Assembly (NCBI GenBank): GCA_017521605.1
Contig: JAFXCD010000093.1
Coordinates: 1-52,985 of the forward strand
Origin: Lachnospiraceae bacterium
GTDB lineage: Bacteria; Bacillota; Clostridia; Lachnospirales; Lachnospiraceae
Direction of reading: 5' to 3'
DNA: 52,985 bases
In this document: positions 2,781-45,072 of the stretch, piece after piece
Position numbering within the stretch: the first letter of the stretch is position 1
Layout of the letters: the number at the start of each line of letters is the position of its first letter
Translations under genes and position numbers: made by a program
The notes under the pieces: model-generated
The model's database searches: none
The model's input: only the letters and a program-made list of their open reading frames with translations
What the model was told of the DNA's origin: nothing

Positions 2781-5700
2781 ATGAAAAGGTATTTGGCAAT
2801 AATCTTATCGGTTGCTCTTATAATTTCCATGTTTCCCATGAAAGCAGAGGCAGATAGTGAACCATTGGGTGTTGGCGAAACACTGCGTTTTGATTTCGGT
2901 GGAGCAGAAGTGGAAGAGGGGTACATAGGAGTATCATCAGGAGATGCCTATACTGCAGAGGCAGGCTATGGATTTGAAAATACCGATGCAGTAGAGAATG
3001 TGACCGCAAGCGGAGAAGGAGCACTGAAGGATGCGGTACGTTTTAAGTCCGGTGTTCCGGGGCATGTTTTTCATGTGGATTTGCCAAGCGGAGTGTATAA
3101 GATAACGGTGACAACCGGTGATGTGCAGTCCACTACCATCAATGCAGAGGGTTTGCCCCAGCTTTTCTTTTTGACGGGCAATAATGCGGTGGATACCTTT
3201 ACCATACCGGTTACAGACGGGCAGCTGAATATTTATGCAGGCTCCGGTGTGGGAACAGAGTTTTCTATCAGTGCCCTGGAGATTCAGCGGACATCTACAG
3301 GAACCACTACCAAGCCCACCATCTGGACCTGTGGTGATTCCACGGTTGCAAGCTACTACAACGTACCGGCGGATGCCAAGCGTGGCTGGGGACAGTATTT
3401 AAGCAATTATGTGGATATGGAGCAATATGATATACGTAATATATCTGCAAGCGGCATTACCTCACGGGAATTAAAGGATTATTTCTTCCCTACTGCAGAG
3501 TATTACGGAAAAAGTGGCGATATCATGCTGATAGCGGTAGGACTGAATGATTATTCCCAGCAGTATAATGGTGATTCAAGTGTCCTTGACCCAAGTGAAT
3601 ATATAGCAAATGTGACCAATATGGTACAGCGTGCAAAAGCAAAGGGAATGACCGTTTATCTGGTAAAACAGAACGGTCAGTTGGATGATTGTACCAAATA
3701 CCCTGTGCTGACAAGCAAGTGGTTTGGAGAGGAACTGGAGACAATCGCCGCGACAGAGAATGTGGGTATTATCGACTTATTTGAACCCTGGCTGGTATTT
3801 TGCATGGAAAATACGGTAAGAGTGGCAGGTAAGTATTATAGCGATGATAAGCTGCATATGAATGCATTGGGGGCGGACATGCTTGCCGGCATGGTGAAGG
3901 AGCAGCTTTTCCCTGCGGCAAAACCGGCTCCCGGTGAAGACCCCTATAAAAATTTTGATACTTCGTCTACGGTATATTATGAAGCGGAAGCTTCCGGTGA
4001 ACCGGTGGTAAACCCACATAAGGGATATGTTATGACCGTTTATGATGCTTGGGCGTTTGAGTCTACGAATCCTTATGGTATCGGCGGCTCTATGAACAAT
4101 ACTGCCTGGGAAATGTCCACCATTTGTACCGGGGAACCCAAGTGGGATGAGTTAAATCCTGAGGAGGGCGTGTATGACTGGTCTTCCATCGACAGTATGC
4201 TGGAAGCCTGTGAAAAATACGGATATACTTACGGAATCCGAATTCTTCCCTATTCCCATCTTTCCGGTTCTCATGCTAATTACGGAAAGGACCATGTTTT
4301 CGTACCGGATTGGGTGTTTGCGAAGGGGGCACAGATGGACCGCGCAACACTGTACAGTGATCCTTCTGTGGAATTGGATATTCCCAAGTGGGACGACCCC
4401 ATCTTCTTGCAGGCAGCGAAGGATTTTGCAGATGCTCTTGCTGAACACTACGACGGGGACCCGCGAGTGGAGTTTATCGATATCAGTGTGTTCGGTAACT
4501 GGGGTGAGTGGCATACCACTACCTTTGAAGGGAACCCCATGCCTTCTGTAGAGATTCAGAAGGATATGGTCAAGTACTACAGCGATGCTTTTGACAAGAC
4601 ATGGCTTTGTGTTACCTCCGGTGCTTACGGAGAAGTGTATGATTATGCATTATCTCTTGGAATCCCCAAGCGTGTGAACGGTTTGATTGGTTCGCACAAC
4701 TATGAATGGAACCTAAGACCGAACTATAAAGCAAATCTACCTGTAATCGGTGAGAACTTCCTGCCCTATAGAATGATGTTTGATCCTACAGTGGCCGAAG
4801 AACAAGGTATTGTGAAGGACTATGATAAGCATTATTTAAGATGGACACCACAGCGTTTCCGTGAAACCATTGAGATTTCACACCTGTCCATTTATGCATT
4901 TGATCAGGATAGTCATCATAGTTATGAGTTTTACAACGAACAAAAAGACCTGATTGAGGAAATGAATAACCGATTGGGTTATAACTATACGGTAACTAGT
5001 GCCAAGAGAAATGGTAACAAGCTTTTGGTATCTATTAAGAATACCGGTCTGGCACCTGCATTCTTCGATATTGACCTGTGCGCGGAGATTACAGATGCAG
5101 AAGGCAATAAGCTGGGCACCTTCGGAAACCCGGTAAAGATAGCGAAGGGAAGTTTCCGTGACGACACCGAGCAAACATTTTTGTTTGAGTATGACGGAAC
5201 ACTTGCTGAGGATGTGGTACTTTGTCTGGCAATGTATGAAAGTGATAAGTTGCCTGCAACGAAGTCCAAGGCCCGTGCTACGGTTCAAGATCCTACCGTA
5301 AAATTTGACAACAAGAACACCTTGTCCAATAACAGATTGCTGATGGTAGTTGATGAAAGTATGCATACCCATGCAGGAACGTTGGTAGAGCAAAGAAACG
5401 CTACCTGTACCGAGTTTGGTGTGAAGGCATATTATGAGTGTGCTTGCGGTAAGTTCTTTGTGGATTCGGCATGCTCAGAGGAAATTGCTGACCTGGATGC
5501 ATGGAAGACCGGTGAGGGAAGAATCTGGAAGGAAGCTCATACCGGAGGAAATGCGACCTGTAAGGAAAAAGCCAAGTGTGCTGTTTGTGGAACCGAGTAT
5601 GGAGAGTTAGCAGACCATGAATATGGAGCAAACTGGAAATCTGATGAAACAAACCATTGGCAGGAATGTGCGGTTTGTGAAAACGAGAAGAATCGTGCCG

Positions 5701-6089
5701 GGCATGTAGATGCAGATAAGGATGGAAAGTGTGAAGTTTGTGGAGAAGATGTGGCATCGGAAGAAGCCGAACCGACTGCGGCGCCACCCCAGGCACCAAT
5801 TGAGGCACCTACCGAAGCGCCACCCCAGGCACCAATTGAGGCACCTACAGAAGTGCCAATCGTGACACCTACCGTAGTACCTACTGAAGCGCCTGCCACG
5901 GTACCTACGGAGGCACCGAAAGTGCCCACAACAACGGAAGAACCTGTTCCTACAAGCCAACCCATAGTACCAAATGCTCCTAAGACAGGGGATGACTTTA
6001 ATCCTTGGCTCTTTGGTGGCATTGGTATCGCTGCTATGTTGGCAGGTGTCGGTACTTTCTTTAGGAGAAAGAAGAAAGAAGCTTGCTGA
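2781..6089 (+). CDS. Modular cell-wall-anchored SGNH esterase with TIM-barrel-like domain
   Basis: 1102 residues, strong site AGGAGGAG before the ATG. Order of parts: signal peptide 1-25 (cut near AEA-DS); a beta-sandwich at about 30-170 like the N-terminal module of rhamnogalacturonan acetylesterases; an SGNH hydrolase at about 179-377 with GDST (Ser187), GLND (Asn256, Asp257) and DKLH (Asp356, His359) as the expected catalytic blocks; a region at about 410-740 beginning NPHKGYVM and containing ISVFGNWGEW, like DUF4832-type or glycosidase-related barrels; a beta domain; two Cys-rich segments (CxxC pairs, about 865-1000) as seen in clostridial surface proteins; a Pro/Thr/Glu repeat wall spacer; and a sortase signal PKTG, hydrophobic helix, RRKKK tail. 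Likely de-acetylates pectic or other plant polysaccharide at the cell surface; the substrate and any glycosidase activity are inferred. Confidence 0.85.
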   Translation: MKRYLAIILSVALIISMFPMKAEADSEPLGVGETLRFDFGGAEVEEGYIGVSSGDAYTAEAGYGFENTDAVENVTASGEGALKDAVRFKSGVPGHVFHVDLPSGVYKITVTTGDVQSTTINAEGLPQLFFLTGNNAVDTFTIPVTDGQLNIYAGSGVGTEFSISALEIQRTSTGTTTKPTIWTCGDSTVASYYNVPADAKRGWGQYLSNYVDMEQYDIRNISASGITSRELKDYFFPTAEYYGKSGDIMLIAVGLNDYSQQYNGDSSVLDPSEYIANVTNMVQRAKAKGMTVYLVKQNGQLDDCTKYPVLTSKWFGEELETIAATENVGIIDLFEPWLVFCMENTVRVAGKYYSDDKLHMNALGADMLAGMVKEQLFPAAKPAPGEDPYKNFDTSSTVYYEAEASGEPVVNPHKGYVMTVYDAWAFESTNPYGIGGSMNNTAWEMSTICTGEPKWDELNPEEGVYDWSSIDSMLEACEKYGYTYGIRILPYSHLSGSHANYGKDHVFVPDWVFAKGAQMDRATLYSDPSVELDIPKWDDPIFLQAAKDFADALAEHYDGDPRVEFIDISVFGNWGEWHTTTFEGNPMPSVEIQKDMVKYYSDAFDKTWLCVTSGAYGEVYDYALSLGIPKRVNGLIGSHNYEWNLRPNYKANLPVIGENFLPYRMMFDPTVAEEQGIVKDYDKHYLRWTPQRFRETIEISHLSIYAFDQDSHHSYEFYNEQKDLIEEMNNRLGYNYTVTSAKRNGNKLLVSIKNTGLAPAFFDIDLCAEITDAEGNKLGTFGNPVKIAKGSFRDDTEQTFLFEYDGTLAEDVVLCLAMYESDKLPATKSKARATVQDPTVKFDNKNTLSNNRLLMVVDESMHTHAGTLVEQRNATCTEFGVKAYYECACGKFFVDSACSEEIADLDAWKTGEGRIWKEAHTGGNATCKEKAKCAVCGTEYGELADHEYGANWKSDETNHWQECAVCENEKNRAGHVDADKDGKCEVCGEDVASEEAEPTAAPPQAPIEAPTEAPPQAPIEAPTEVPIVTPTVVPTEAPATVPTEAPKVPTTTEEPVPTSQPIVPNAPKTGDDFNPWLFGGIGIAAMLAGVGTFFRRKKKEAC

Positions 6090-22744: not shown

Positions 22745-24331
22745 TTATGCATCTTCATGTCGACCGGGCAAAGCTTTCATTAGGGAAATCCATCCATAAG
22801 CTGCATAGGGATAAAGCAGTAGTGTATAAGGGAAGATGTATCTGGAGTTAGCTTCCCAGAACATGTGGAATAAGAAGGCACCAAAAACGCCGATGATACC
22901 CAGATAAAGGGAATACTGTGAAAGTGTGGTATCGGCTTTATTGCGGATTGGGAGAAATGCAAAAACTGCACATCCCAAATAGAGTAGTAATTGTATCAGG
23001 TTACAGAAAGGGATAAATAACAAATCATATTTGCCACTATATAAATTCACAAAGACCTGACGGCGTCCTCCCAGATTGTTTAAGGTAGCCTGAAGGCAGG
23101 CATATGTGCCATCACACCACTGAGAGAGATATTTACCGGCATAAAATTCTACTGCATGGGAAGGATTTTCTTTAAAGAATAGGGAACGCTCGGCAATGGC
23201 TTCCCGACTGACTTTGTTTGCCAGTTCTTTATTAAGACCGGAGTTTTCATAGGTGGTGAGGTTGAAACCGTTGTACCAGCCTTGTGCCCGGTTGCTTTCC
23301 TGCATTCCCATGGCGATGTAAGATAAGGCAGTGACACCGGAGCTCAATTCATTTCCGGCACGCTGCACATAAATCTTTTGAATGGTTGGCAGGGTTAGGA
23401 AAGTAATAAGTGCATATACGACCAACATACAGAAAAAGGATCTTTTGCCATAACGAATGCATTCAAACAGAACTACACCCATTACGGCAATCATCAGAAT
23501 CATGGCATTTTTTCGTAACATCATACAACCAATAAAAGCCACAAAGCTTAAAAGCATGTAGCCCCAAGGGAGAAGTTTTTTCTCAGAAGTATTAGTATCT
23601 TTTTCCTTTTCAAAAACTTTCAATATGCACAAATATCCTAAAGAAAACAGGGAAATAGAGGGTATTTCGCCATAAACAAAGGAAGTATAAAACAGGAAAG
23701 GAACATTGCATATCATTAATAAAAGATAGGTAATGTTGATTTTGTAATTATGAAAGAGCATGTCAATGGTTTTATATTGACATAGGATCATTAAACATGT
23801 CCAAAAAACATTTATAACCTTTATAAAGTGAAAACCAATCAGACTTACAGGTAGCAGGTTCCACAAGCGTAGTAGTATTTCATAGTAAGCCACCAAGCCA
23901 ATTTGGTGGGGATAATAGGATAAATAAGAAGCAGTGGGATGGATGGCAGAGAAATCATTCACTGCAAATTGTTCTGCGATTCGAAAAACAGTCATGGCAT
24001 CACCACCCGGAGCTGTCCGGCAGAAAACAAGCAGAATGGCACTTGCAAATATATACCAACCCATGGTTAGACCCAGAAACAGTCTGCTACGAAAGGAGGT
24101 GTTCTTTGAGGTCCATTTTATTGCTAATTTAAGCAACAAAAGAAATAAGCCAAGACCCAATATGCTGAATAGAATATTGTCAGTACGGGTAAGTACCTTC
24201 TGTGTACCCATATCTTCAATATAACAGGTAAAAATAAGCGTGGACAGGAGTAACAAAAGAGTAAATAGAAAAGCCATGTATTTCAATATGGAAAAAACTT
24301 TGGTATAAATTGCAGAACGAAATTTTTGCAT
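22745..24331 (-). CDS. Polytopic membrane protein, GT-C glycosyltransferase-like
   Basis: 528 residues, with AAAGGAGA before the ATG on the minus strand. About ten to twelve hydrophobic helices. The first large outer loop holds APGGDAMTVFRIAEQF and SYYPHQIGLVAYYE; an acidic residue here is the usual catalytic position in GT-C enzymes (PMT/ArnT type). No cytoplasmic domain. Faces its neighbour gene tail to tail. Likely transfers a sugar from a polyprenyl carrier to a wall polymer or protein; acceptor unknown. It could instead be a flippase-like protein. Confidence 0.65.
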   Translation of the reverse strand: MQKFRSAIYTKVFSILKYMAFLFTLLLLLSTLIFTCYIEDMGTQKVLTRTDNILFSILGLGLFLLLLKLAIKWTSKNTSFRSRLFLGLTMGWYIFASAILLVFCRTAPGGDAMTVFRIAEQFAVNDFSAIHPTASYLSYYPHQIGLVAYYEILLRLWNLLPVSLIGFHFIKVINVFWTCLMILCQYKTIDMLFHNYKINITYLLLMICNVPFLFYTSFVYGEIPSISLFSLGYLCILKVFEKEKDTNTSEKKLLPWGYMLLSFVAFIGCMMLRKNAMILMIAVMGVVLFECIRYGKRSFFCMLVVYALITFLTLPTIQKIYVQRAGNELSSGVTALSYIAMGMQESNRAQGWYNGFNLTTYENSGLNKELANKVSREAIAERSLFFKENPSHAVEFYAGKYLSQWCDGTYACLQATLNNLGGRRQVFVNLYSGKYDLLFIPFCNLIQLLLYLGCAVFAFLPIRNKADTTLSQYSLYLGIIGVFGAFLFHMFWEANSRYIFPYTLLLYPYAAYGWISLMKALPGRHEDA

Positions 24332-30704: not shown

Positions 30705-32744
30705 ATGGCAGTAAGAAGCGGTAGTCTGTCAATTAACAGTGAAAACATTTTTCCCATTATTAAGAAGTGGTTATATTCTGACCACGATATTTTCTACAGA
30801 GAGTTAATCTCCAATGGTTGCGATGCGGTAACCAAGCTTAAGAAGCTGGATATGATGGGTGAGTATACCTTGCCGGATGGTTATCAGGGCAAGATAGAGG
30901 TAGTGGTTGACCCTCAGAAAAAGACATTGACCTTTACAGATAATGGTTTGGGTATGACTGCGGATGAAGTAGATGAATATATTAACCAGATTGCTTTTTC
31001 CGGAGCTACTGATTTTATTGAAAAGTATAAAGATAAGAGTAATTCAGACCAGATTATCGGTCATTTTGGTTTGGGCTTTTATTCTGCATTTATGGTAGCA
31101 AATGAAGTGCATATTGATACCCTTTCTTATCAGAAGGGGGCAAAGCCGGTACATTGGGAATGTGATGGTGGCACAGAGTTTACTATGGAAGATGGGGATA
31201 AGACAGAGATTGGTACCACAATTACTCTGTTTTTGAATGAAGACAGCTTGAAATTCTGTAATGAGTATGAAGCACGGGAAGTAATTAAAAAGTATTGCTC
31301 CTTTATGCCCACAGCCATTTATTTGTCTAAGGCAAACAATACCGATACACAGACTATTTCTACAGAGGAGAAGCTGGATACTGACGAAGTGGTAGAGGTA
31401 ATCAAGCCGGAGAAGGAAGAAGATGGCGAAAAGCTGAAAATCAAGAAACGTCCTGAGCTTATGAACGAAACCAGACCTCTTTGGACGAAGCATCCTAATG
31501 AATGCACCAGAGAAGAATATCTGGAATTTTACCGTAAGGTATTTCAGGATTATAAGGAGCCTTTGTTCTGGATTCATTTGAACATGGACTATCCTTTTAA
31601 CTTGAAAGGTATTTTATATTTCCCTAAAATTAATATGGAGTATGAGTCTATTGAAGGAACCATTAAGCTTTATAACAACCAGGTATTTATAGCAGACAAT
31701 ATCAAGGAAGTTATACCGGAATTCTTGCTTTTATTAAAGGGTGTTATTGATTGCCCTGATTTACCGTTGAATGTTTCCAGAAGTGCATTACAGAACGATG
31801 GTTTTGTAAAGAAGATTTCTGAGTATATTACAAAGAAGGTGGCAGACAAGCTTTCCGGTATGTGTAAAACCGAGAAGGAAGAGTATGATAAGTACTGGGA
31901 TGATATCAGTCCCTTCATCAAGTACGGTTGCTTGAGAGATGATAAATTCTGTGAAAAAATGACCAACTACATTTTGTTCAAGAATTTGGAGGGCAAGTAT
32001 CTGACTCTGCCGGAGTGTCTGGAAATCAAGCCTTTGGATGAAACAGAAGAGGCAGTGGATGAGAATGGTGCAGCAGTAGAGGCAGAAGTAGTAAATGAAG
32101 ATTTGGATGCTGAGGATACAGAAGAGAAGAAGGAAAAGGTTATTTACTATGTAACCGATGAAAAGCAGCAGGGGCAGTATATTGATATGTTCAAGGCTGC
32201 TAAGATGGATGCAGTGATTCTGACTCATAATATTGACCAGCCCTTTGTTTCACAGTTAGAAGCCAAGAACGAAGGAATTAAGTTCCAGAGAATCGATGCA
32301 GATTTAACAGATGTGTTTAAGGCAAGGACTTCTAAGAAGGCTGAGAAGGAGCTGGAAGAGCAAGCAGCTTCTTTGCTGGAGATAATGAAGAAGGCTCTGA
32401 AGAATGACAAGTTGAATTTGAAACTACAGAAGTTAAAGAATAAGAAAATTGCTTCTGTGATTACCCTGTCCGAAGAAAGCAGACGTATGCAGGATATGAT
32501 GAAGATGTATTCTATGCCGGGCATGGATATGAGTGCTTTTGGTGCAGAGGGTGAAACTCTGGTATTGAATGCCAACCATCCTTTGGTAGAGTATGTAGTG
32601 GCAAATCAGGAAAGTGAAAATACCAAGATGATTTGTGAGCAGCTCTATGATTTGGCAAAGTTACAGCATGAGCCTCTTGCTCCGGAAGCTATGAGCAAGT
32701 TTATTGCAAGAAGTAATGAGATTATGATGTTGTTGACGAGATAA
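30705..32744 (+). CDS. htpG: Hsp90-family chaperone HtpG
   Basis: 679 residues, AGGAAG site. N-terminal GHKL ATPase: ELISNGCDAVTKLK (N box), DNGLGMTADE (G1), and GHFGLGFYSAFMV (G2), with lid residues between. The middle domain contains the conserved arginine loop LPLNVSRSALQ. A charged acidic insertion at about residues 450-475 (EETEEAVDENGAAVEAEV in part) precedes the C-terminal dimerisation domain. Slightly longer than E. coli HtpG because of that insertion. ATP-dependent protein folding in the cytoplasm. Transcribed alone, controlled by CIRCE. Confidence 0.94.
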   Translation: MAVRSGSLSINSENIFPIIKKWLYSDHDIFYRELISNGCDAVTKLKKLDMMGEYTLPDGYQGKIEVVVDPQKKTLTFTDNGLGMTADEVDEYINQIAFSGATDFIEKYKDKSNSDQIIGHFGLGFYSAFMVANEVHIDTLSYQKGAKPVHWECDGGTEFTMEDGDKTEIGTTITLFLNEDSLKFCNEYEAREVIKKYCSFMPTAIYLSKANNTDTQTISTEEKLDTDEVVEVIKPEKEEDGEKLKIKKRPELMNETRPLWTKHPNECTREEYLEFYRKVFQDYKEPLFWIHLNMDYPFNLKGILYFPKINMEYESIEGTIKLYNNQVFIADNIKEVIPEFLLLLKGVIDCPDLPLNVSRSALQNDGFVKKISEYITKKVADKLSGMCKTEKEEYDKYWDDISPFIKYGCLRDDKFCEKMTNYILFKNLEGKYLTLPECLEIKPLDETEEAVDENGAAVEAEVVNEDLDAEDTEEKKEKVIYYVTDEKQQGQYIDMFKAAKMDAVILTHNIDQPFVSQLEAKNEGIKFQRIDADLTDVFKARTSKKAEKELEEQAASLLEIMKKALKNDKLNLKLQKLKNKKIASVITLSEESRRMQDMMKMYSMPGMDMSAFGAEGETLVLNANHPLVEYVVANQESENTKMICEQLYDLAKLQHEPLAPEAMSKFIARSNEIMMLLTR

Positions 32745-36335: not shown

Positions 36336-36377
36336 TCTTTGGTAAAAGCGACCAAGATGCAGGAAAGGAAAAGAAAC

Positions 36378-37997
36378 ATGGAATTAACTTTGCAGAGTTT
36401 AATAGAACATCGTCAGGAATTTATTGATGCAGGATATTGTCTGCCGGAATTTGATTATGACAAGGTGATGGAGAATACAAAAAAACGCCCTACCTGGGTG
36501 CATTTTGGTGCAGGTAATATTTTTCGTGCATTTCAGGCAAATGTAGTACAGAAGCTTTTGAATAGAGGCGAGCTGGATACGGGCTTGATTGCAGCAGAAG
36601 GTTTTGACTATGAAATCGTAGAAAAAATGTACTGGCCCCATGATAATCTGGGTATTCTGGCTACATTGAAGGCAGATAATACTGTGGACAAGACCATTGT
36701 AGGTAGTATTATGGAATCTTTGGTGTTGGATAGCGAAAATGAAGCACAATATGGACGTTTAAAGGAGATTTTTGCAAATCCTTCTTTGCAGATGGCGAGC
36801 TTTACTATCACCGAAAAGGGATATTCCTTGGTAGATGGTAAGGGCAATACTGTGCCAGCAGTAGAAGCGGACTTCGCAAACGGACCGAAGAAGCCTGCGA
36901 GTTATTTGGGTAAGGTGGTTTCTCTGCTTTATACCAGGTACGAAAGCGGCAAACTTCCCATTGCCATGGTAAGTATGGATAACTGTTCACATAACGGTGA
37001 CAAGCTGGCGGCGGCAGTATTTGCTTTTGCAGATAAGTGGGCAGAAAACGGTGTGGCTGACAAGGGCTTTGCAGAATATGTACGAGATACAAAGGCAGTT
37101 TCTTTCCCTTGGAGCATGATTGACAAGATTACCCCCCGTCCGGACAAAACTGTGGAAGAAATGTTGAATGCAGATGGTATTGATGGACTGGACGCGGTTA
37201 TTACCTCTAAAAACACTTATGTGGCGCCTTTTGTAAATGCAGAGGAATGCGAATATCTGGTTATTGAAGACTGGTTTCCTAACGGCAAGAGTGCCTGGGA
37301 TAAGGGGGGCTTGATTTTTACAGACCGAGAAACCGTAGACAAGGTGGAGAAAATGAAGGTTTGTACCTGTTTGAATCCTTTGCACACCACCCTGGCAGTG
37401 TATGGTTGTCTGCTGGGATATACCTTGATTTCAGCAGAAATGAAGAACCCTGATTTAAAGAAATTTGTAGAAATTGTAGGCTATAAGGAAGGTCTGCCGG
37501 TGGTAGTAAATCCGGGCATTATCGATCCTAAGAAGTTTATTGACGAAGTGGTAAATAGCCGTATTCCCAATCCATTTATGCCGGATGCACCTCAGCGTAT
37601 TGCTACTGATACTTCCCAGAAGCTGGCCATACGTTTTGGTGAAACCATTAAAGCGTATGTAGCTCATGAGGAATTAGATGTAAAATCCCTGAAATTGATT
37701 CCGCTAGTTTATGCAGGATGGTTACGCTATCTTATGGCTGTGGATGATAACGGAAATTCTTTCGAACCCAGTTCGGATCCATTGTTGGATACAGTTATGC
37801 CTTATGTGGCAGAGTATGAGCTTAGTGAGGAGCCTAAGGACCTAAGCAAGTTGGACGAATTGCTGAAAAATGATAAGATTTTCGGTGTGAATCTTTTTGA
37901 GGTAGGATTAGCTGATTTGGTTAAGAAATATTTCGCTGAGTTAAGCTGTGGTCAAGGAGCAGTGGCTTCCACTGTAAGCAAATATGTAAATGAATAA
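36378..37997 (+). CDS. uxuB: Fructuronate reductase (mannitol dehydrogenase family)
   Basis: 539 residues from ATG 36378, preceded by AGGAAAGGAA; a further in-frame TTG (36339) and ATG (36357) lack a ribosome site. NADH-dependent reduction of D-fructuronate to D-mannonate, feeding UxuA. Rossmann motif HFGAGNIFRAFQ, the NCSHNGDKL-type active-site block (MVSMDNCSHNGDK), and FPWSMIDKITPRP; the C-terminal helical domain begins near CLNPLHTTLAVYG. Pairing with uxuA makes this substrate far more likely than mannitol or altronate. Ends at a good terminator. Confidence 0.9.
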   Translation: MELTLQSLIEHRQEFIDAGYCLPEFDYDKVMENTKKRPTWVHFGAGNIFRAFQANVVQKLLNRGELDTGLIAAEGFDYEIVEKMYWPHDNLGILATLKADNTVDKTIVGSIMESLVLDSENEAQYGRLKEIFANPSLQMASFTITEKGYSLVDGKGNTVPAVEADFANGPKKPASYLGKVVSLLYTRYESGKLPIAMVSMDNCSHNGDKLAAAVFAFADKWAENGVADKGFAEYVRDTKAVSFPWSMIDKITPRPDKTVEEMLNADGIDGLDAVITSKNTYVAPFVNAEECEYLVIEDWFPNGKSAWDKGGLIFTDRETVDKVEKMKVCTCLNPLHTTLAVYGCLLGYTLISAEMKNPDLKKFVEIVGYKEGLPVVVNPGIIDPKKFIDEVVNSRIPNPFMPDAPQRIATDTSQKLAIRFGETIKAYVAHEELDVKSLKLIPLVYAGWLRYLMAVDDNGNSFEPSSDPLLDTVMPYVAEYELSEEPKDLSKLDELLKNDKIFGVNLFEVGLADLVKKYFAELSCGQGAVASTVSKYVNE

Positions 37998-38010
37998 TAT
38001 GAGTGTTTTG

Positions 38011-38046
38011 GTGGTGCATTTTATGGTGGATGCACCACTTATTTTT
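38011..38046 (+). terminator. Intrinsic terminator of the uxuAB operon
   Basis: Perfect 9-bp stem GTGGTGCAT (38011-38019) with ATGCACCAC (38030-38038), followed by TTATTTTTT. Confidence 0.85.
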
Positions 38047-38070: not shown

Positions 38071-38099
38071 TTGCCATGAGGGGGAGTCCATGTTATACT
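38071..38099 (+). promoter_or_regulatory. Promoter of the DUF5717-like operon
   Basis: TTGCCA (38071-38076), 17-nt spacer, extended -10 TGT-TATACT (-10 at 38094-38099). The leader to the first gene is about 70 nt. Confidence 0.65.
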
Positions 38100-38178
38100 T
38101 ATGGATAGTGGGTGATTTTATCCCTTTGAGGGAAAAGAGCTTGGATTATCATGAAAAAGCATGGTCGGGAGAGTATGT

Positions 38179-41100
38179 ATGCGGGAAGCAATAGAACAAA
38201 TTTTAGATGGTACATATGATTATGAAAAAGGTGCTTTGAACTTTTCCTGTACAAAGCTGGAGATAGAGCTGCAGAAGGGTGAAATCTATGAGGGAAGTTT
38301 TACCATTCTTGCGTCGGAGGGAAAGTATACTGTAGGCTACATTACTGCTACCGACCCCAGGATGGAGTGTTTGTCTACAGAAATACATGGCAATCAGGAG
38401 GAGATTGCTTTTCGCTTTCATGGAGAATGGATGGAAGAAGGGGAAGTGACCAAGGGTGAATTTCAGGTGGTAAGTAACAAAGGAGAGTATTATTTACCAT
38501 TTGTAGTCAGTGTAATGCATGGTGCGCCAAAGTCTTCCATGGGACTTGTGAAGAATCTGTTACAGTTTACCAATCTGGCCAGAAGCAACTGGCAGGAAGC
38601 GGTAAGTGTTTTTTATTCACCGGCATTTGCCCAGGTGTTAAAGGAATCAGGAAATCAGTTGTATCTGACTTATCGAGGTCTGGCTATTCAGGAAGGGAAT
38701 GAACAGCATGTGGAAGAATTCCTGGTGGCAGCCAACAAGAAACAGAGAATAGAATATTTGGCTTCTGAAAAGAGGATATTTCTGGAGAATCCGGTAGGAA
38801 TTACAGAACAGCCTATACATATTTTCAGAAACGGTTGGGGATACACCAATCTGGAAGTATGGTGTGACGGAGATTTTCTGTTTGTAGAAAAGAATATAAT
38901 TACAGAAGATGACTTTCTGGGAAATCAGTTTACTCTTCCGGTTTATGTGGATAATGCGTTATTACATCAAGGCAGAAATATGGGCAAAATCTTACTTAAG
39001 AGTATCGGGTGTGAGGTGGAAATCCCTATCACCATATTGAATCGGAATGGCAATAAGGAAGAGTTCTTTGAAAGAACAGAGTATAAAAAATATATTTACA
39101 GTCTGGTGCAGAAGTTTCAGGAGTTGCGCTTAGAAATGATAAATAAGGCAGATTGGCTTCAGGAAGTTACAAGAATCATTGAACGTATGGTTATGTTGAA
39201 TGAAAAGGATGTGATGACAAGACTTTATCAGGCACATTTGCTTTTAACCAAAGAGCAAGTAAATGAAGCCGGCTGGATTTTAGAGCATGTAGGTGAATTG
39301 ATGGATGATGCAGAACCTACATTGGAGGCATATTATTTGTATTTAAATTCCCTGTATCGGAAGGAAGAGGGATATAATGGTGAGATGAACTGGCAGGTGA
39401 ACAGGATTTACCGGGAATATGGTAATGATTGGCGCGTGGCATGGCTTTTGCTGTTTATGACAGAGGAATATAACAGGGAACCAATTCTTAAGTGGAATTT
39501 ATTGAAGGAACAGTTTGGAAATGGTTGCCGCAGTCCGTTAATCTATCTGGAAGCATTATTATTGTTAAATCAGAACCCGACTTTATTACGTAAAATAGAA
39601 GGTTTTGAAATGCAGGTGCTTCATTATGGTAAAAAGAAGGAAAAAATAGGTCTTGAATTATTGGAACAGGTTATTTATTTGTCGGAACGAACAAAAGATT
39701 ACCACCCCCTTCTTTATGCACTTTTAGTGAGTAATTATCAAAAAAAAGCAGATGAGAGAGTATTAAAAGAAATATGTACACAATTAATCAAAGGCAACAG
39801 AACGGATACAGAGGCCTTTGACTGGTTTGAAAAAGGTGTAGAAGCAGGAATTCGTATTACTAATCTGTATGAATATTATATGATGTCTATGGATTTGGAA
39901 AAGGACTGTGAAATTCCTAAACAGGTATTGTTGTATTTTACATATCAGACCAATTTGGATTATTTTCATAATGCGTATTTATTTTATTATGTAACAAAGC
40001 GGGAAAGAACTCTGGCAGATATATATATGAATTATCGTCCCAGAATCCAGCTTTTTGTGAAGGAACAGGTATTGAAAGGGCGTATTAACAGGCATTTGGC
40101 AGGCTTGTACCGTCATTTCCTAAATAAGGACATATTGGATGGAGATATGGCTAATAGTTTATCCGGTCTTTTGTTTACCTATGAGATAAGATTGGAGCGT
40201 AAGGACATTAAGCATGTAATAGTGTGTCAGCCCAATCATTTAAAAGAGCAAAAGTATGCAGTGTCAGGAGACAAAGCATGGATTTCTTTATATGGAAAAG
40301 CCAATAGTATTCTGTTTGAGGATTACCAGGGACTTCGCTATGCCTGTGATGTGCCATATACCATGGAGGAGCTTATTTTACCAAAGGAACTTTTGGATAA
40401 AGTAATTCCCATGGTGGAGAATAATCCGGCATTGGATATTTATTTATATGGTATGCCCCGAAAGGGTATAGATGTTAATGAACAGGAAATACAAAGATGG
40501 ATAAGACTATCGGGATATGAGTACCTGCCGGATTTTATCCGGGGAGATATTGTTATAAAGCTTCTCAAGTATTATGGAAAGGAAGAAGATAACAGATATC
40601 TGATAGAATATCTGAGCAACCTGGATGGTGGATTTATGTCTGCTACACAGCGGGGAGAGGTCGTTCGGCAGATGGTGCTTTGCGATTGCATGGATATGGC
40701 GTATGGCTGGTATGATAAGTATGGCAATTGCAAGGTAGATGATAAAATATTGTTACATCTGTTTGAGGCACAGGTGGACAGAGGACATGTCAGTCCCGGA
40801 GGAGAATTGGCAGTATACGTTTATCATTTGATGAAAAGAGGTACCTTTAGTGGTAAGTTATTAGCCTATTTAATGTCATGTTACCAAGGGTTAATAAGAG
40901 ACTTGCGTAAGATTTGGACTATTTCAAAAAACTATGCTGTAGATCGAAAAGCCTTTTGTGAGCGATTTGTGATACAGTCATTATTCTCCGGATATTATGT
41001 GAGTGAGCAGGCAGAAATTTTCAAGGAATTTGTATTTGCCAATGGGGATGAAGAGGTTATTGAAGCCTATTTGACCAAACATAGCTATGAAGCCTTTACC

Positions 41101-41736
41101 ACAAATATGTTAGTTCAGCAGGAAGTATTGTTGGAAATCAGCCGGTTACATAGTGTTGGAAAAGTGGTGCCGGAGATTTGTCGATTGGCATATCTGAAGT
41201 ATTACGCAGAAAACAGGGAAGAGATTCAGAAGGAAGATGTTTCCATAATTCGGGGTTTTATGGATGATATGCTTGAAGAAGGAATCTATTTAAATTGTAT
41301 AATGGATTTGCGGCAGTATAGTAGTAAGTCTCAACTTTTAATGGACCGTTCTTTGGTTGAGTATCATGGTGATTCTCAAAGCCAGCCGGTAATTCATTAT
41401 CTGATTATCGGTGAAGATGGAGAAGTGGGTGACTATGTGTCAGAGCCGATGAAGCATGTGCTGGGTGGGATTTTTGTTAAAGAATTCATTTTATTCTTTG
41501 GCGAAAGTCTGCAGTATTATATTGTAGAAGCTGGAGAGGGCGAAGGTAAGCTTACACAAAGTGGTACCATACAGAGGAATGAAATGTTAGGCGAAGAGTT
41601 TTACGGCAGATATGGTGTTATTAATGATATTATTATCAGCAAAACCATGCAGGATTACAATACCTTTGATAATCTGTTGGAAGAATATTACAGAAATGAT
41701 TTTTATAATCAGGAATTGTTTAAACCTAGAAAATAA
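38179..41736 (+). CDS. Giant protein of unknown function, DUF5717-like
   Basis: 1185 residues from ATG 38179, which has GGGAGAG about 7 nt upstream; the frame begins at ATG 38161, with weaker context. The first ~290 residues are beta-rich, with repeats resembling immunoglobulin-like modules (FSCTKLEIELQKGEIYEGSF, then YTVGYITATDPRME). The next ~750 are alpha-helical in pairs resembling tetratricopeptide or HEAT-like solenoids (LLTKEQVNEAGWILEHVGEL, WRVAWLLLFMTEEY). The final ~150 are beta again (QPVIHYLIIGEDGEVGDYV). No signal peptide or clear membrane helix, so cytoplasmic. From memory this pattern is the DUF5717 family. It heads a four-gene operon of uncharacterised function. I cannot offer a biochemical activity. 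Confidence 0.75.
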   Translation: MREAIEQILDGTYDYEKGALNFSCTKLEIELQKGEIYEGSFTILASEGKYTVGYITATDPRMECLSTEIHGNQEEIAFRFHGEWMEEGEVTKGEFQVVSNKGEYYLPFVVSVMHGAPKSSMGLVKNLLQFTNLARSNWQEAVSVFYSPAFAQVLKESGNQLYLTYRGLAIQEGNEQHVEEFLVAANKKQRIEYLASEKRIFLENPVGITEQPIHIFRNGWGYTNLEVWCDGDFLFVEKNIITEDDFLGNQFTLPVYVDNALLHQGRNMGKILLKSIGCEVEIPITILNRNGNKEEFFERTEYKKYIYSLVQKFQELRLEMINKADWLQEVTRIIERMVMLNEKDVMTRLYQAHLLLTKEQVNEAGWILEHVGELMDDAEPTLEAYYLYLNSLYRKEEGYNGEMNWQVNRIYREYGNDWRVAWLLLFMTEEYNREPILKWNLLKEQFGNGCRSPLIYLEALLLLNQNPTLLRKIEGFEMQVLHYGKKKEKIGLELLEQVIYLSERTKDYHPLLYALLVSNYQKKADERVLKEICTQLIKGNRTDTEAFDWFEKGVEAGIRITNLYEYYMMSMDLEKDCEIPKQVLLYFTYQTNLDYFHNAYLFYYVTKRERTLADIYMNYRPRIQLFVKEQVLKGRINRHLAGLYRHFLNKDILDGDMANSLSGLLFTYEIRLERKDIKHVIVCQPNHLKEQKYAVSGDKAWISLYGKANSILFEDYQGLRYACDVPYTMEELILPKELLDKVIPMVENNPALDIYLYGMPRKGIDVNEQEIQRWIRLSGYEYLPDFIRGDIVIKLLKYYGKEEDNRYLIEYLSNLDGGFMSATQRGEVVRQMVLCDCMDMAYGWYDKYGNCKVDDKILLHLFEAQVDRGHVSPGGELAVYVYHLMKRGTFSGKLLAYLMSCYQGLIRDLRKIWTISKNYAVDRKAFCERFVIQSLFSGYYVSEQAEIFKEFVFANGDEEVIEAYLTKHSYEAFTTNMLVQQEVLLEISRLHSVGKVVPEICRLAYLKYYAENREEIQKEDVSIIRGFMDDMLEEGIYLNCIMDLRQYSSKSQLLMDRSLVEYHGDSQSQPVIHYLIIGEDGEVGDYVSEPMKHVLGGIFVKEFILFFGESLQYYIVEAGEGEGKLTQSGTIQRNEMLGEEFYGRYGVINDIIISKTMQDYNTFDNLLEEYYRNDFYNQELFKPRK

Positions 41737-41750
41737 TCAGGAGGGAACCG

Positions 41751-43004
41751 GTGTTACTGAATTCAGCTAGTGAGAATATAATAATAGGATATGACTTAAC
41801 CAATACCTGCTCCCAAATCAGTTATCAATTTCTGAAAAGTGGTAGTCAGGTAGAGACTTTGACTGCTGTAGCCGGTCAGGAAAATTATGATATTCCTACG
41901 GTGTTATGCAAAAAATGCGGCGTAAATCAATGGCTTTTTGGAAAAGATGCATTGCGTTTTTATGAAAATGACCCATTGGAAGGGATTTTGGTAGATGATT
42001 TGCTGCAATTAGCCATAAAAGGTGAGATGGTGCAGCTGGGTGGCAAGGGATATGACCCGGTAGCATTGCTGACACTTTTTGTGAAAAGAAGTCTGGGAAT
42101 GTTATCCCATATTGCTACCATGGATAAGATTTATGGAATTTTGTTTACCTGTGAGGAATTGACTCCGAGAGTAATAGAAGTTCTGACCATGGTTGTCAAT
42201 GGATTGGATTTGAAAAATACAAAGATATATTTCCAAAACTATGAAGAAAGCTATTATGGATATATGCTGCACCAGCAGCAAGAGCTTTGGAAGGAACAAT
42301 CCATTTTATTCGATTATCGTGGGGATGCAGTAAAGGTAATGAAGTTGCAGAAGAATACCAAGACCACGCCCATTGTAGTTTATGTGGATAGAAAGGAAAA
42401 AAACTTTGGTGGCGGCGATAAGGCTTTTTTAGAACTGGCAAAGGAATGTATGATAGAAGGAACTACATCCTCAGTATATCTGATTGGTGAAAAGTTTGCC
42501 GGTGGCTGGATGGAGGAATCCTTACGTTTCTTATGTGAAGGCCGCAGAGTCTTTCAGGGTAACAATCTGTATAGCAAAGGAGCCTGTTATTGTTTGTCAG
42601 AGCGATTAATGCCTACTGCCATGGGAAAGGAGCATGTTTTCTTAGGAGAAGACAAGCTGAAATCCAATGTCGGTATGTTTGTGTTAAAGAGAGGCCAGGA
42701 ATCTTATTTTGCTATTTTAGATGCCGGTGTAGATTGGCGGGATATTTCTTTTGAGTGTGAGATTTACTTGCAGGATGAAAACAACCTGGAGCTGGTGGTG
42801 ACACCATTGTTAGGTGGTAAAGTCAAAATGGTGGAAATACCTTTGGAGGGGTTGTATTTAAAGAAGGGAGAAACCACACGAATTTACATGAAGTTTACCA
42901 TGCCGCAGGAAAACCTTCTAAGTATGGAAATAGAAGATTTAGGGTTTGGAATGTTTAGGGAATCTGTAGAAACTGTGTGGAAGCAAGAGATATCACTGGA
43001 TTAA
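41751..43004 (+). CDS. Actin/Hsp70-like fold protein, DUF5716-like
   Basis: 417 residues, GTG start with AGGAGGG 5 nt upstream. The N-terminus IIIGYDLTNTCSQISYQF resembles the phosphate-1 loop of the Hsp70/actin superfamily, with DLTNT in place of DLGTT. A second lobe carries VYLIGEKFAGGWMEESL followed by GACYCLSE, like the adenosine-binding motif and the helix after it. The last ~100 residues form a beta domain comparable to an Hsp70 substrate-binding sandwich. I recall the family as DUF5716. Whether it hydrolyses ATP is unclear because the phosphate-1 loop is altered. 14 nt after the giant protein gene. Confidence 0.72.
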   Translation: MLLNSASENIIIGYDLTNTCSQISYQFLKSGSQVETLTAVAGQENYDIPTVLCKKCGVNQWLFGKDALRFYENDPLEGILVDDLLQLAIKGEMVQLGGKGYDPVALLTLFVKRSLGMLSHIATMDKIYGILFTCEELTPRVIEVLTMVVNGLDLKNTKIYFQNYEESYYGYMLHQQQELWKEQSILFDYRGDAVKVMKLQKNTKTTPIVVYVDRKEKNFGGGDKAFLELAKECMIEGTTSSVYLIGEKFAGGWMEESLRFLCEGRRVFQGNNLYSKGACYCLSERLMPTAMGKEHVFLGEDKLKSNVGMFVLKRGQESYFAILDAGVDWRDISFECEIYLQDENNLELVVTPLLGGKVKMVEIPLEGLYLKKGETTRIYMKFTMPQENLLSMEIEDLGFGMFRESVETVWKQEISLD

Positions 43005-43017
43005 TTGAGAGGTAGTT

Positions 43018-43860
43018 ATGAAGGCTAGATTATGTCTGGGAGTTTATGCTACAAATGCATATTGTTTTGAAGGCTTAGGTGTGTCTGTATATTGTATGGA
43101 GGAGCTTTCGTATTGCCTGAAGGAGCATGCTTTTTTGCTGGGAACCGAGATTATGAGTGATGAATTATTGCACTTTATAGGCTCGGATTGTCAGGTGCCT
43201 GAATTGGAAAGACAGTTGTATCCTATGGTGCATCAGAAGGGTTCTTTAAGTGTTTTTGTGGCTACCATATTGGATTATGTGGGCTTCTTTGAAGAGAAGG
43301 ATATAAAGAATGTAGAAGATACGGTACGTTTGGGGTCCGGACTTTCTGAACATGAGAAGAAGAAACGGCAAATAGATAATCTTTTAGAAAGAAAGAAGTA
43401 TTATGCTGCCATTGAAGCTTATAACCAATTGATTGACCGAATGGAAGAAGAAGGAAAAAGTAATCCTCAAATAGGCGGTTTTATAGCTGATTTGTATTAT
43501 AATCGGGGTGTGGTATATGCCAATTTGCTTTTATATAAGCAGGCAGCTGAAAGCTTCAGAGAGTCTTACAATTGGAAGAAGGATGATGAAGCTTTACGAG
43601 GTTATTTTTTTGCCAGAAGGATGGAGCTTTCTGATCATGAATATGTGGCACTTGTTGCCAAGCATCCGGAATGCTATGGGATATCCATGCAGGTAGAGCA
43701 AAAAATGAAGGAGTTAGCAGAACAATGGCAAGAATCCCCTGAGAGTATGGGTCTGGATAATATGCGACGTTGGCGTACTACAGGTGATAGCCATAAGTAT
43801 TATGCGGAATGTGACCAAATAGTTAAAATTATTCAAGAGGATTATCGTAACTGTATTTAG
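43018..43860 (+). CDS. TPR-containing protein of the DUF5717-like operon
   Basis: 280 residues, GAGAGG before the ATG. No signal peptide. The first ~110 residues are mixed alpha/beta, reading like a small regulatory domain. Residues about 125-200 hold two TPR-like helical hairpins (KKYYAAIEAYNQLIDRM; NRGVVYANLLLYKQAAESF), the usual protein-docking repeats. The C-terminus is highly charged. Probably binds one of the other operon products. Function unknown. Confidence 0.68.
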   Translation: MKARLCLGVYATNAYCFEGLGVSVYCMEELSYCLKEHAFLLGTEIMSDELLHFIGSDCQVPELERQLYPMVHQKGSLSVFVATILDYVGFFEEKDIKNVEDTVRLGSGLSEHEKKKRQIDNLLERKKYYAAIEAYNQLIDRMEEEGKSNPQIGGFIADLYYNRGVVYANLLLYKQAAESFRESYNWKKDDEALRGYFFARRMELSDHEYVALVAKHPECYGISMQVEQKMKELAEQWQESPESMGLDNMRRWRTTGDSHKYYAECDQIVKIIQEDYRNCI

Positions 43861-43893
43861 TAAGAAACAAAGGAAATGAAAGGGCCGGACACT

Positions 43894-45072
43894 GTGAAAT
43901 TTTGGGAAAAGCTTTTTAAGAAAAAAAGACAGCGTTATCAGGAAGAGGACTGGGAGCAACTCATATATACCAGGGAAGGCGTTAATTTTGAACTGGCAGA
44001 GGAACGAAAGTCTTATGTGGATGAATGTCTGGAACAGATGGTAGTGGCTGCCAAGGAATTGGAACTTTTGGGAGGAGAGTATTCACTGGTGACGGCTTAC
44101 CTGACAGATACAGAAGAGGTAGAGGCATTACCACAGGATGAGCAGGATGCACTGATGGTTTCTGCAAAACGTTTACGGGTAGTAGAACAGGAGCGAAATG
44201 ACTACCTGACAAAAGAAAACCGCATGCCGGATTCCGTTTATTACAGCATGAAAGATAAGGAAGAAGAGCTGGAGGAAGGAATTCGGAAATTAAAGGAAGC
44301 GGAAGAGTATGGTTCCAAAATCAAACAGGATTTGAAACGTTTGTCCAGAGAACGCCATGCTTATGCATATCGTAAGGATGAATTGCTTGGGATACGTGAG
44401 AACTTAAAAGGCATGTTTGCCATATTTGCCGGAGCGCTGGTGGTTTGTATTACTATTTTAGCTATTTTGCAATTTGGTTTTAAGTTGAATACTGCAGTGG
44501 GCTGTTTTGTGGCAGTGGTAGCTGCGGCTATAGCTTTTACGGTAATCTGGCTGAAATTTACAGAAGCGGGCAGAGAACTGCTTCGCGTGGAGAAGGCTAC
44601 TAATAAGCTGATTCAATTACAAAATAAAGTGAAGATTAAATATGTTAATAATACCAATCTGTTGAATTATTTATATTTAAAATATCAGGTGGAAAATTGC
44701 AAAACTCTGGAAAAACAGTATGAAGCATATTTGCAGGAAAAGGAAGAGAGAAAGCAATATGAAGAAGCAGAGGCTAAAAGGGAGTATTATATCCGAAATC
44801 TGACCGAACAGTTGACTCGATTCCGTGTACGCTATCCGGAACGCTTTACCTCCAATGTGGATGCATTATTAAACCATAAAGAACTGGTAGAAATGCGTCA
44901 CGACCTGATTATACGAAGGCAGACTCTGCGTAAACAGATAAATTATAATAGTGATGTTATTAAGACTGTTAAGAAAGAAATTAAGGATATTGCTTTCTCT
45001 TATCCGGATTATGAACAGGAGATTAGTGCGAAGCTGACCGAATTTGAGACACGTTTTAAAGGAGTAGAATAG
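43894..45072 (+). CDS. Membrane coiled-coil protein of the DUF5717-like operon
   Basis: 392 residues from GTG 43894 (AAAGGG 9 nt upstream); an in-frame ATG at 43876 has its ribosome site too close. A long cytoplasmic coiled coil (about 30-165; LEEGIRKLKEAEEYGSKIKQ) is followed by two adjacent transmembrane helices (about 175-225: FAIFAGALVVCITILAIL, then AVGCFVAVVAAAIAFTVIWL), then a second coiled coil to the end. Hairpin insertion with both ends inside the cell suits a membrane anchor for the complex formed by the upstream proteins. The stop touches the next promoter, so no terminator separates them. Confidence 0.68.
   Translation: MKFWEKLFKKKRQRYQEEDWEQLIYTREGVNFELAEERKSYVDECLEQMVVAAKELELLGGEYSLVTAYLTDTEEVEALPQDEQDALMVSAKRLRVVEQERNDYLTKENRMPDSVYYSMKDKEEELEEGIRKLKEAEEYGSKIKQDLKRLSRERHAYAYRKDELLGIRENLKGMFAIFAGALVVCITILAILQFGFKLNTAVGCFVAVVAAAIAFTVIWLKFTEAGRELLRVEKATNKLIQLQNKVKIKYVNNTNLLNYLYLKYQVENCKTLEKQYEAYLQEKEERKQYEEAEAKREYYIRNLTEQLTRFRVRYPERFTSNVDALLNHKELVEMRHDLIIRRQTLRKQINYNSDVIKTVKKEIKDIAFSYPDYEQEISAKLTEFETRFKGVE

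Follow-up and report, generated by a model that had tools for sequence, protein, structure and literature searches.

Lachnospiraceae is a dominant family of the gut, and 148 of the 150 genomes sampled from it carry a gene cluster for which the literature that was searched records no function. Since the cluster is present in nearly every member of the family it is likely to be important for the cell, and the question is what kind of machinery its genes encode. We take up this question from the copy in contig JAFXCD010000093.1 of a Lachnospiraceae bacterium (assembly GCA_017521605.1, 92.87% complete with 5.99% contamination), of which positions 1 to 52,985, here called the window, were analysed. 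Four tandem genes on the + strand, g1 to g4, span positions 38179-45072, and an original prediction, made from the letters of the sequence alone, had seen in them an undescribed membrane-attached machine with a chaperone- or filament-like core. The answer at which we arrive is that g2 encodes a degenerate Hsp70 and that the cluster is, as far as sequence comparison can tell, a reduced form of an operon with eight to nine genes and several Hsp70s, a relation that lay beyond the view of the original prediction.

The four genes and their spread in the family

The four open reading frames (ORFs) are separated by gaps of 14, 13 and 33 nucleotides, exactly as had been described. The first, g1 (38179..41736, + strand), encodes a protein of 1185 residues, the whole length of which is covered by matches to DUF5717_N (1.1e-273, 910.6 bits) and DUF5717 (6.8e-80, 268.9 bits), the Pfam pair PF18984/PF18983. 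Its first in-frame ATG, at 38161, would give 1191 residues, and the start is placed at ATG 38179 because a relative with 67% identity (in L124, below) starts there; the stop is at 41736. In the PDB, the best match of the g1 profile has an E of 0.042. The second, g2 (41751..43004, + strand), starts with GTG and encodes 417 residues, of which residues 130-416 match DUF5716_C (PF18980) above its cut-off, at 5.1e-89 and 298.6 bits. The suspected resemblance of these two proteins to DUF5717 and DUF5716 is in this way borne out: both are plain members of Pfam families that carry no function. Gene g3 (43018..43860, + strand) encodes a TPR protein of 280 residues, with one weak TPR_1 match (1.9e-4, under the family cut-off) and a family profile that matches both designed and natural TPR structures in the PDB. 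Gene g4 (43894..45072, + strand) encodes a predicted membrane protein whose two membrane helices are flanked by long, charged helical stretches, of 392 residues when read from GTG 43894 or 398 when read from ATG 43876. Its hydrophobic 19-residue segments lie at 180-198 and 210-228 in the numbering of the longer version. No family in Pfam or NCBIfam matches g4 above cut-off; a match to SLATT is sub-threshold in both (0.12 and 0.014, respectively). In the family alignments, two hydrophobic segments of this length are present in 20 of 27 g4 proteins and one in the other seven, and such a segment occurs in 1 of 33 members of g1, 5 of 51 of g2 and 0 of 41 of g3.

A search of genome contigs with the window g2 as single query returned one relative. 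The nearest named relative is contig JAFXFO010000025.1 (L124), from Lachnospiraceae bacterium isolate RGIG6370 of sheep rectum, in which g1 to g4 and flanking ORFs of similar size occur in the same order, with identities of 79% for g2 and 67% for g1.

DUF5716_C is found in 145 of the 150 genomes of the window's family, mostly with one match per genome, and in 0 of 14 control genomes; in a draw of 299 genomes from the phylum it is found in four, all of them from the window's family. DUF5717_N is present in three of the five family genomes without DUF5716_C, which are also the five covered by a search with g1's own profile, and g1 or g2 is then present in 148, both matches being absent only from G029 and G091. 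Sixty loci of the family were fetched, in a non-random choice made up of the best, the weakest and the oddest matches together with others. The genes g1, g2 and g3 adjoin in this order in 59 of the 60, from which follows that the cluster is more than a chance arrangement; the exception (L068), from a 67%-complete genome, has g2 only, and in L072 and L092 the g1 gene is short or broken into pieces. The median gaps, with the window included, are 14 nucleotides between g1 and g2 (n = 60), -1 between g2 and g3 (n = 55) and 14 between g3 and g4 (n = 27). In five of the 60 loci, g2 and g3 are fused in one frame. On a tree of g1 (quick method, SH-aLRT) two events account for these fusions, of which one falls on a long branch of uncertain placement, and the fusion appears to have arisen independently at least two times.

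The profile of g4 matches 69 of the 150 family genomes, 65 of them strongly (E <= 1.5e-62). Of the strong matches, 64 adjoin g2 on the same contig and one, in G092, is found at the start of another contig; the four weak matches (E 1.5e-5 to 8.8e-4) were left out of the g4 count. The gene is present in 26 of the 60 fetched loci, and its gains and losses on the g1 tree amount to nine changes, at least seven when judged by the starred branches. Gene g4 is an optional member of the cluster, present in 65 of 150 genomes. Of the four genes for which conservation in order among relatives had been proposed as a check, g1-g2-g3 are kept together and g4 is not always present.

Three records labelled 'UNVERIFIED: Bacteriophage sp.', from human faeces (L148, MT835486.1; L149, MT835719.1; L150, MT835988.1), are pieces of bacterial chromosome with g1 to g4, where g1 or g4 is cut by the record ends in two of them and valS is present in one. 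A fourth such phage-labelled record, MT837634.1, was also matched. Viral contigs, scanned with a sequence pattern, gave no match.

Relation of g2 to Hsp70 and to the operons of sister families

As a single query against the PDB, the window g2 returns antibody chains only, at E >= 0.11, and it has no Pfam HSP70 match. The likeness to Hsp70 is hidden in the single sequence, and a family profile is therefore needed to bring it out. With a profile of 51 members, the best PDB match is DnaK at 5e-8, six DnaK sequences are found at E <= 2.4e-6, and 19 of the 20 matches at E <= 10 are Hsp70s. The score is carried by the nucleotide-binding domain. The C-terminal part is tentatively assigned to the beta part of the substrate-binding domain (SBD-beta), because a sister protein that is clearly an Hsp70 (C, below; Pfam HSP70 at 7.4e-63) matches DUF5716_C over residues 415-535, at 7.5e-10. 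Another sister protein, B, matches HSP70 (PF00012) at 1.4e-17 and DUF5716_C at 1.5e-26. The domain order of g2 is a nucleotide-binding domain without the insert of lobe IIB, followed by an SBD-beta-like C-terminus; the protein ends about a dozen residues beyond the SBD-beta match, and the helical lid is absent. The original prediction of an Hsp70/actin-like protein that ends in a beta domain and has a modified phosphate loop agrees with these matches, the loop being D15-L-T-N-T19. By profile comparison, DUF5716 is a homologue of Hsp70 and very probably not an actin-like filament protein.

When 146 genomes of the order are searched with the g2 profile, matches are found in 91, and some families of the order lack the system. 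Fifteen of the 91 genomes belong to the window's family, and 59 others have two or more matches each, with a best E below 1e-15. The remaining 17 genomes have weak matches only (E 1e-7 to 1e-10), which are probably cross-matches to DnaK and were not counted. Seventeen sister loci, spread over roughly nine other families, were fetched, plus three more of the window's own family. The sister layout, with eight to nine genes, is g1-like - A - E - B - C - D - TPR - g4-like, where the g1-like part is often two genes, for about 390 and 900 residues. A (about 559 residues) and C (about 545) are Hsp70s, B has about 457-542 residues, D (about 690) is an Hsp70 with a C-terminal vWA domain, and the TPR protein has about 390 residues. 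E, with 279-645 residues, has a GrpE domain at its C-terminus in L106 (3e-13) and L104 (5.4e-12), and is identified in the other sister loci by its similarity to L106 only. The Pfam scans of sister proteins covered L106, parts of L110, and L104, with GrpE and vWA checked in L106 and L104; among the nine proteins of the scan of L106 and parts of L110 there was no DnaJ or J-domain match at E <= 0.1. In the 17 sister loci the g1-like gene is counted 13 times, A 13, E 17, B 16, C 16, D 15, the g3-like gene 13 and the g4-like gene 5, and the full set of g1, A, E, B, C, D and g3 is found in 12. Some of the incomplete loci are cut by contig ends, L111, L112 and L119 are rearranged, and in L104 (genome G450) the D and TPR genes are split frames.

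Two of these sister proteins have an architecture of their own. The E protein of L106 (L106:10873-12804) has 644 residues with the GrpE domain in the last 125 only, preceded by a long helical region, and the version in G450 has 279 residues. D, in L105-L110, L113-L118 and L123, joins Hsp70 to vWA, an unusual chaperone architecture, with a metal-site-like DTTGS stretch seen by eye.

How the ATP site has fared can be followed in one alignment of 63 g2, 16 B, 13 A, 16 C and 15 D proteins with two DnaK-like proteins, where the site numbers are those of DnaK. The residues D8, G10, T11, T12, K70, E171, D194, the GGG loop, T199, D201, K270, G341 and G342 are kept in A (13/13), in C (16/16) and in D (14/15 or 15/15), where the single shortfall is a gap from one truncated D and G342 is kept in all 15. 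The column of E171 is uncertain by a few residues, and the E267 position, kept only in D, was not used. In B, D8 (15/16), D194 (15/16), G196 (13/16) and G341 (16/16) are kept, and K70, G198, T199 and D201 are each kept in 0 of 16. In g2, K70, the GGG loop and G342 are each kept in 0 of 63, T199 in one and D201 in two. The span from the phosphate-2 loop to the adenosine loop has a median of 64 residues in g2 versus 137.5 in B, and is at least 127 in the Hsp70 groups compared; judged from this shortening by about 70 residues, lobe IIB is absent in g2. The B protein of G450 is intermediate: it has the g2-like signature GSGFEVPW...RRVFQGQNLFSYGACY yet a span of 132 residues.

The same order emerges from a tree, in which 16 of the 63 g2 proteins were used. 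A, C, D and the DnaK-like proteins are split from B and g2 at 100/100, all 16 g2 proteins lie on one side of a 100/100 branch, and the B of G450 joins next at 100/100; several branches of B and g2 are long. By these comparisons, B is the ortholog of g2, with an ATP site that is already degenerate, and g2 is very probably a pseudo-Hsp70 of this ancestry.

The window cluster and the sister operon are the same locus. Downstream on the same strand, valS is found in 20 of the 60 family loci, in L122 and in 4 of the 17 sister loci (L104, L110, L113, L115), two of these genes having been checked with Pfam, and rarA-like genes are found upstream in six loci, including L120. At the fetched family loci there is no Hsp70 between g1 and g3. 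Across the 150 family genomes a profile of C scores 197 bits at best, and most of its matches are ORFs about as long as DnaK; the sister Cs give 687-1251 bits among themselves, where a single C was the query and the numbers differ in kind from those of the profile search. C therefore appears to have been lost from the family and not relocated. A PF00012 search of five family genomes shows only matches of DnaK and MreB size in G031, G291 and G535, where DnaK is the sole full-length Hsp70. The window cluster is very probably a reduced form of the larger Hsp70 locus, and the sister families and G450 would display intermediate steps of the reduction.

Outside the order, a profile of the sister g1 matches 10 of 245 genomes in a draw from the class (nine of the window's family and, weakly, G718) and 6 of 299 in the phylum draw (four of the window's family and two weakly). 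The weak matches outside the order (G718, G316 and G439; E 3e-6 to 6e-4) are not taken as relatives, being ORFs without an Hsp70-labelled neighbour, and on these draws the range of the system seems not to extend beyond the order.

Proposed working and its alternatives

Consider now how such a reduced locus may work. In the descent of the window's family, the locus very probably lost the Hsp70s A, C and D, with their intact ATP sites, together with the GrpE-domain protein E; the already degenerate g2 lost lobe IIB in addition, and the two pieces of g1 merged into one gene. In the resulting cluster, g2 would no longer bind and hydrolyse ATP in the manner of an Hsp70, and would serve as a fixed module that docks clients or partners by its SBD-beta-like domain. 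Because g2 and g3 occur as fusions, g3 is proposed to bind g2 directly; g1 would be the platform, or scaffold, that holds both, and g4, where present, would anchor the assembly to the cytoplasmic membrane. The cluster would then hold clients without an ATP cycle, where nascent or membrane-bound proteins are a guess, and might hand them on to the ordinary DnaK of the cell. A client-docking scaffold that works independently of ATP is a tentative proposal, for which the chances fall somewhat short of even, and a membrane role of the cluster is a slightly more doubtful one. For the reading as a whole, a reduced Hsp70 locus acting as an ATP-independent docking scaffold is the best explanation that we can offer, and we regard it as evenly balanced between right and wrong; the same balance applies to its evolutionary wording, that a dedicated machine of four Hsp70s, a GrpE-domain factor, a vWA arm, a TPR protein and DUF5717 has turned into an ATP-free scaffold around a pseudo-Hsp70 without lobe IIB.

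Several observations weigh against this explanation or limit it. The SBD-beta stretch (DnaK 399-461) adds only 5.3 bits to the profile match and is non-significant alone. The AlphaFold models, built with two-row alignments from the window and L124 proteins, are unreliable both for g2 (pLDDT 46.6, pTM 0.40) and for g1 (pLDDT 34.5, pTM 0.27); a beta N-terminal part and a long helical-repeat middle of g1 are predicted from the secondary structure of this poor model only. The 14 of 14 Foldseek matches of the g2 model at E <= 0.001 that are Hsp70s carry little weight, with TM scores of 0.17-0.28 and root-mean-square deviations near 20 Å or more. Parts of the ATP loops are retained in g2 (D8 in 55/63, D194 in 37/63 and G341 in 62/63), and g2 may have some altered binding of nucleotide or another ligand. 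No g4 match is found in 81 of the 150 family genomes, from which follows that the membrane step cannot be general; of the membrane attachment that had been predicted, the two hydrophobic segments of g4 stand and universality does not. The whole-genome searches for losses were those with the C profile (150 genomes) and PF00012 (five genomes). In two of the five genomes, G000 and G022, extra DnaK-like proteins of about 560-590 residues are found; the two of this kind in the tree group apart from A, C and D. Finally, reduction rather than expansion is inferred from the decay of B and g2 and the spread over families, and not from a rooted tree.

Further DnaK-like proteins of 560-580 residues are found at L149:16102-20042 and in L144/L145 (contigs C102 and C45 of G000). 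The one in L149 adjoins two proteins with a J-like start and no obvious HPD motif by eye, of which the one scanned has no NCBIfam match.

The alternative that survives best is that g2 is a non-catalytic partner that recruits the general DnaK, in which case DnaK and GrpE would have taken over when the dedicated Hsp70s and GrpE-domain protein were lost. Hsp110-type proteins are non-catalytic partners of Hsp70; in the ancestral locus, active Hsp70s and a GrpE-domain protein stood beside the degenerate one; and in G031, G291 and G535 DnaK is the single full-length Hsp70. GrpE-type factors, however, bind lobe IIB of DnaK, which g2 does not have; we consider this reading unlikely. The likeness to the DnaK-DnaJ-GrpE system itself lies in the Hsp70 domain order of g2 and in the intact Hsp70s and GrpE-domain protein of the sister operon. 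The differences are that g2 is without the ATP residues, lobe IIB and the lid, that the window cluster is without an active Hsp70 or GrpE, and that no J domain is among the Pfam matches of the sister operon.

A second alternative, with about half the probability of the first, is that RNA or the ribosome is the target of the degenerate Hsp70, as has been proposed for CnuD of CoCoNuT. In the CoCoNuT report, Hsp70-like domains with decayed ATP motifs, in a nucleotide-binding and substrate-binding arrangement that resembles g2, are argued to suit RNA binding (PMC11090510). Against this, neither an McrB GTPase nor a nuclease nor an OB-fold is among the Pfam matches of the cluster and sister proteins scanned; a partner of the McrB/CnuB GTPase or nuclease type is thus missing from the window genes and the L106/L104 operon proteins, to which that comparison was confined; and valS adjoins in only 20 of the 60 fetched loci.

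Still less probable is a role in conflict or defence, with kinship to the GAP1-N2 GTPase systems, which are described as carrying HSP70, GrpE, FNIII/TPR or beta-repeat proteins, vWA and two-helix SLATT membrane parts (PMC7159879). In its parts the sister operon is like this theme, the nearest that was found in print, and the sub-threshold SLATT match of g4 points the same way. The GAP1-M domain (PF20014), however, is missing from all 12 locus-bearing genomes that were searched, when the control in Corynebacterium glutamicum is positive, and the 25 families displayed for 27 scanned g4 members do not include SLATT. The cluster is a single copy at a fixed locus in nearly all family genomes, unlike patchy defence genes; there is no plasmid match, and the phage-collection matches that were inspected are bacterial DNA. 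PADLOC matches none of g1 to g4; two sister Hsp70s match its model PDC-M61B (8.7e-11 and 4.4e-7) and the sister TPR protein weakly matches three models.

An actin-like filament or cytoskeletal system is very improbable: actin and Hsp70 share a fold superfamily, but the match is to Hsp70, and the ATP loops and lobe IIB are gone. Of the chaperone- or filament-like core in the original prediction, the chaperone side is retained, and a filament-like or ATP-driven core is unlikely because the match is specific for Hsp70 and the ATP site is lost. A sporulation machine, the least probable reading, is suggested by the spore-forming lineage and by SpoIVA matches in 103 of the 150 family genomes (102 over the cut-off), but 47 genomes are without a SpoIVA match when only two (G029 and G091) are without the cluster, and G029 has SpoIVA.

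Three points are new here: DUF5716 derives from Hsp70, its gene belongs to a fixed set, and the sister families have a larger operon. No description of DUF5716/DUF5717 as a system was found in the open literature searched, which agrees with the view of the original prediction, although subscription papers and preprints lay mostly outside the search and a prior description is possible; DUF5716 occurs in a listing in one unrelated paper. The sister loci form a series, from active Hsp70 over ATP-dead Hsp70 to Hsp70 without lobe IIB, within one gene order, and this series makes two questions testable, namely what remains for an Hsp70 to do without ATP and why so many genomes retain DUF5716/DUF5717. 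For chaperone biologists, an operon that combines several Hsp70s with GrpE-domain and vWA proteins of its own is of interest in itself.

Flanks of the cluster and other features of the window

Between the upstream gene (36339-37997) and g1 there is a terminator-like hairpin with a run of T (38010..38039, + strand), followed by a weak promoter-like site (38071..38099, + strand), TTGCCA-17-TATACT, with TG before the second hexamer and 10 of 12 positions matched. Both were seen by sequence scan, which finds 30 promoter-like sites in comparison with 22.6 +/- 4.5 in shuffles, little above chance. The single promoter that had been proposed for the four genes has in this way a candidate, together with a hairpin, and is weakly supported.

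Elsewhere in the window, at 22745-24331, there is an ORF of 528 residues with no Pfam match at 1e-8. A protein of 1102 residues (2781-6089) has AGA-YXIM galactose-binding and GDSL domains confined to its first third. The Hsp90 gene htpG (30705-32744; NCBIfam HtpG, 661 bits) is found about 5.4 kb upstream of g1.

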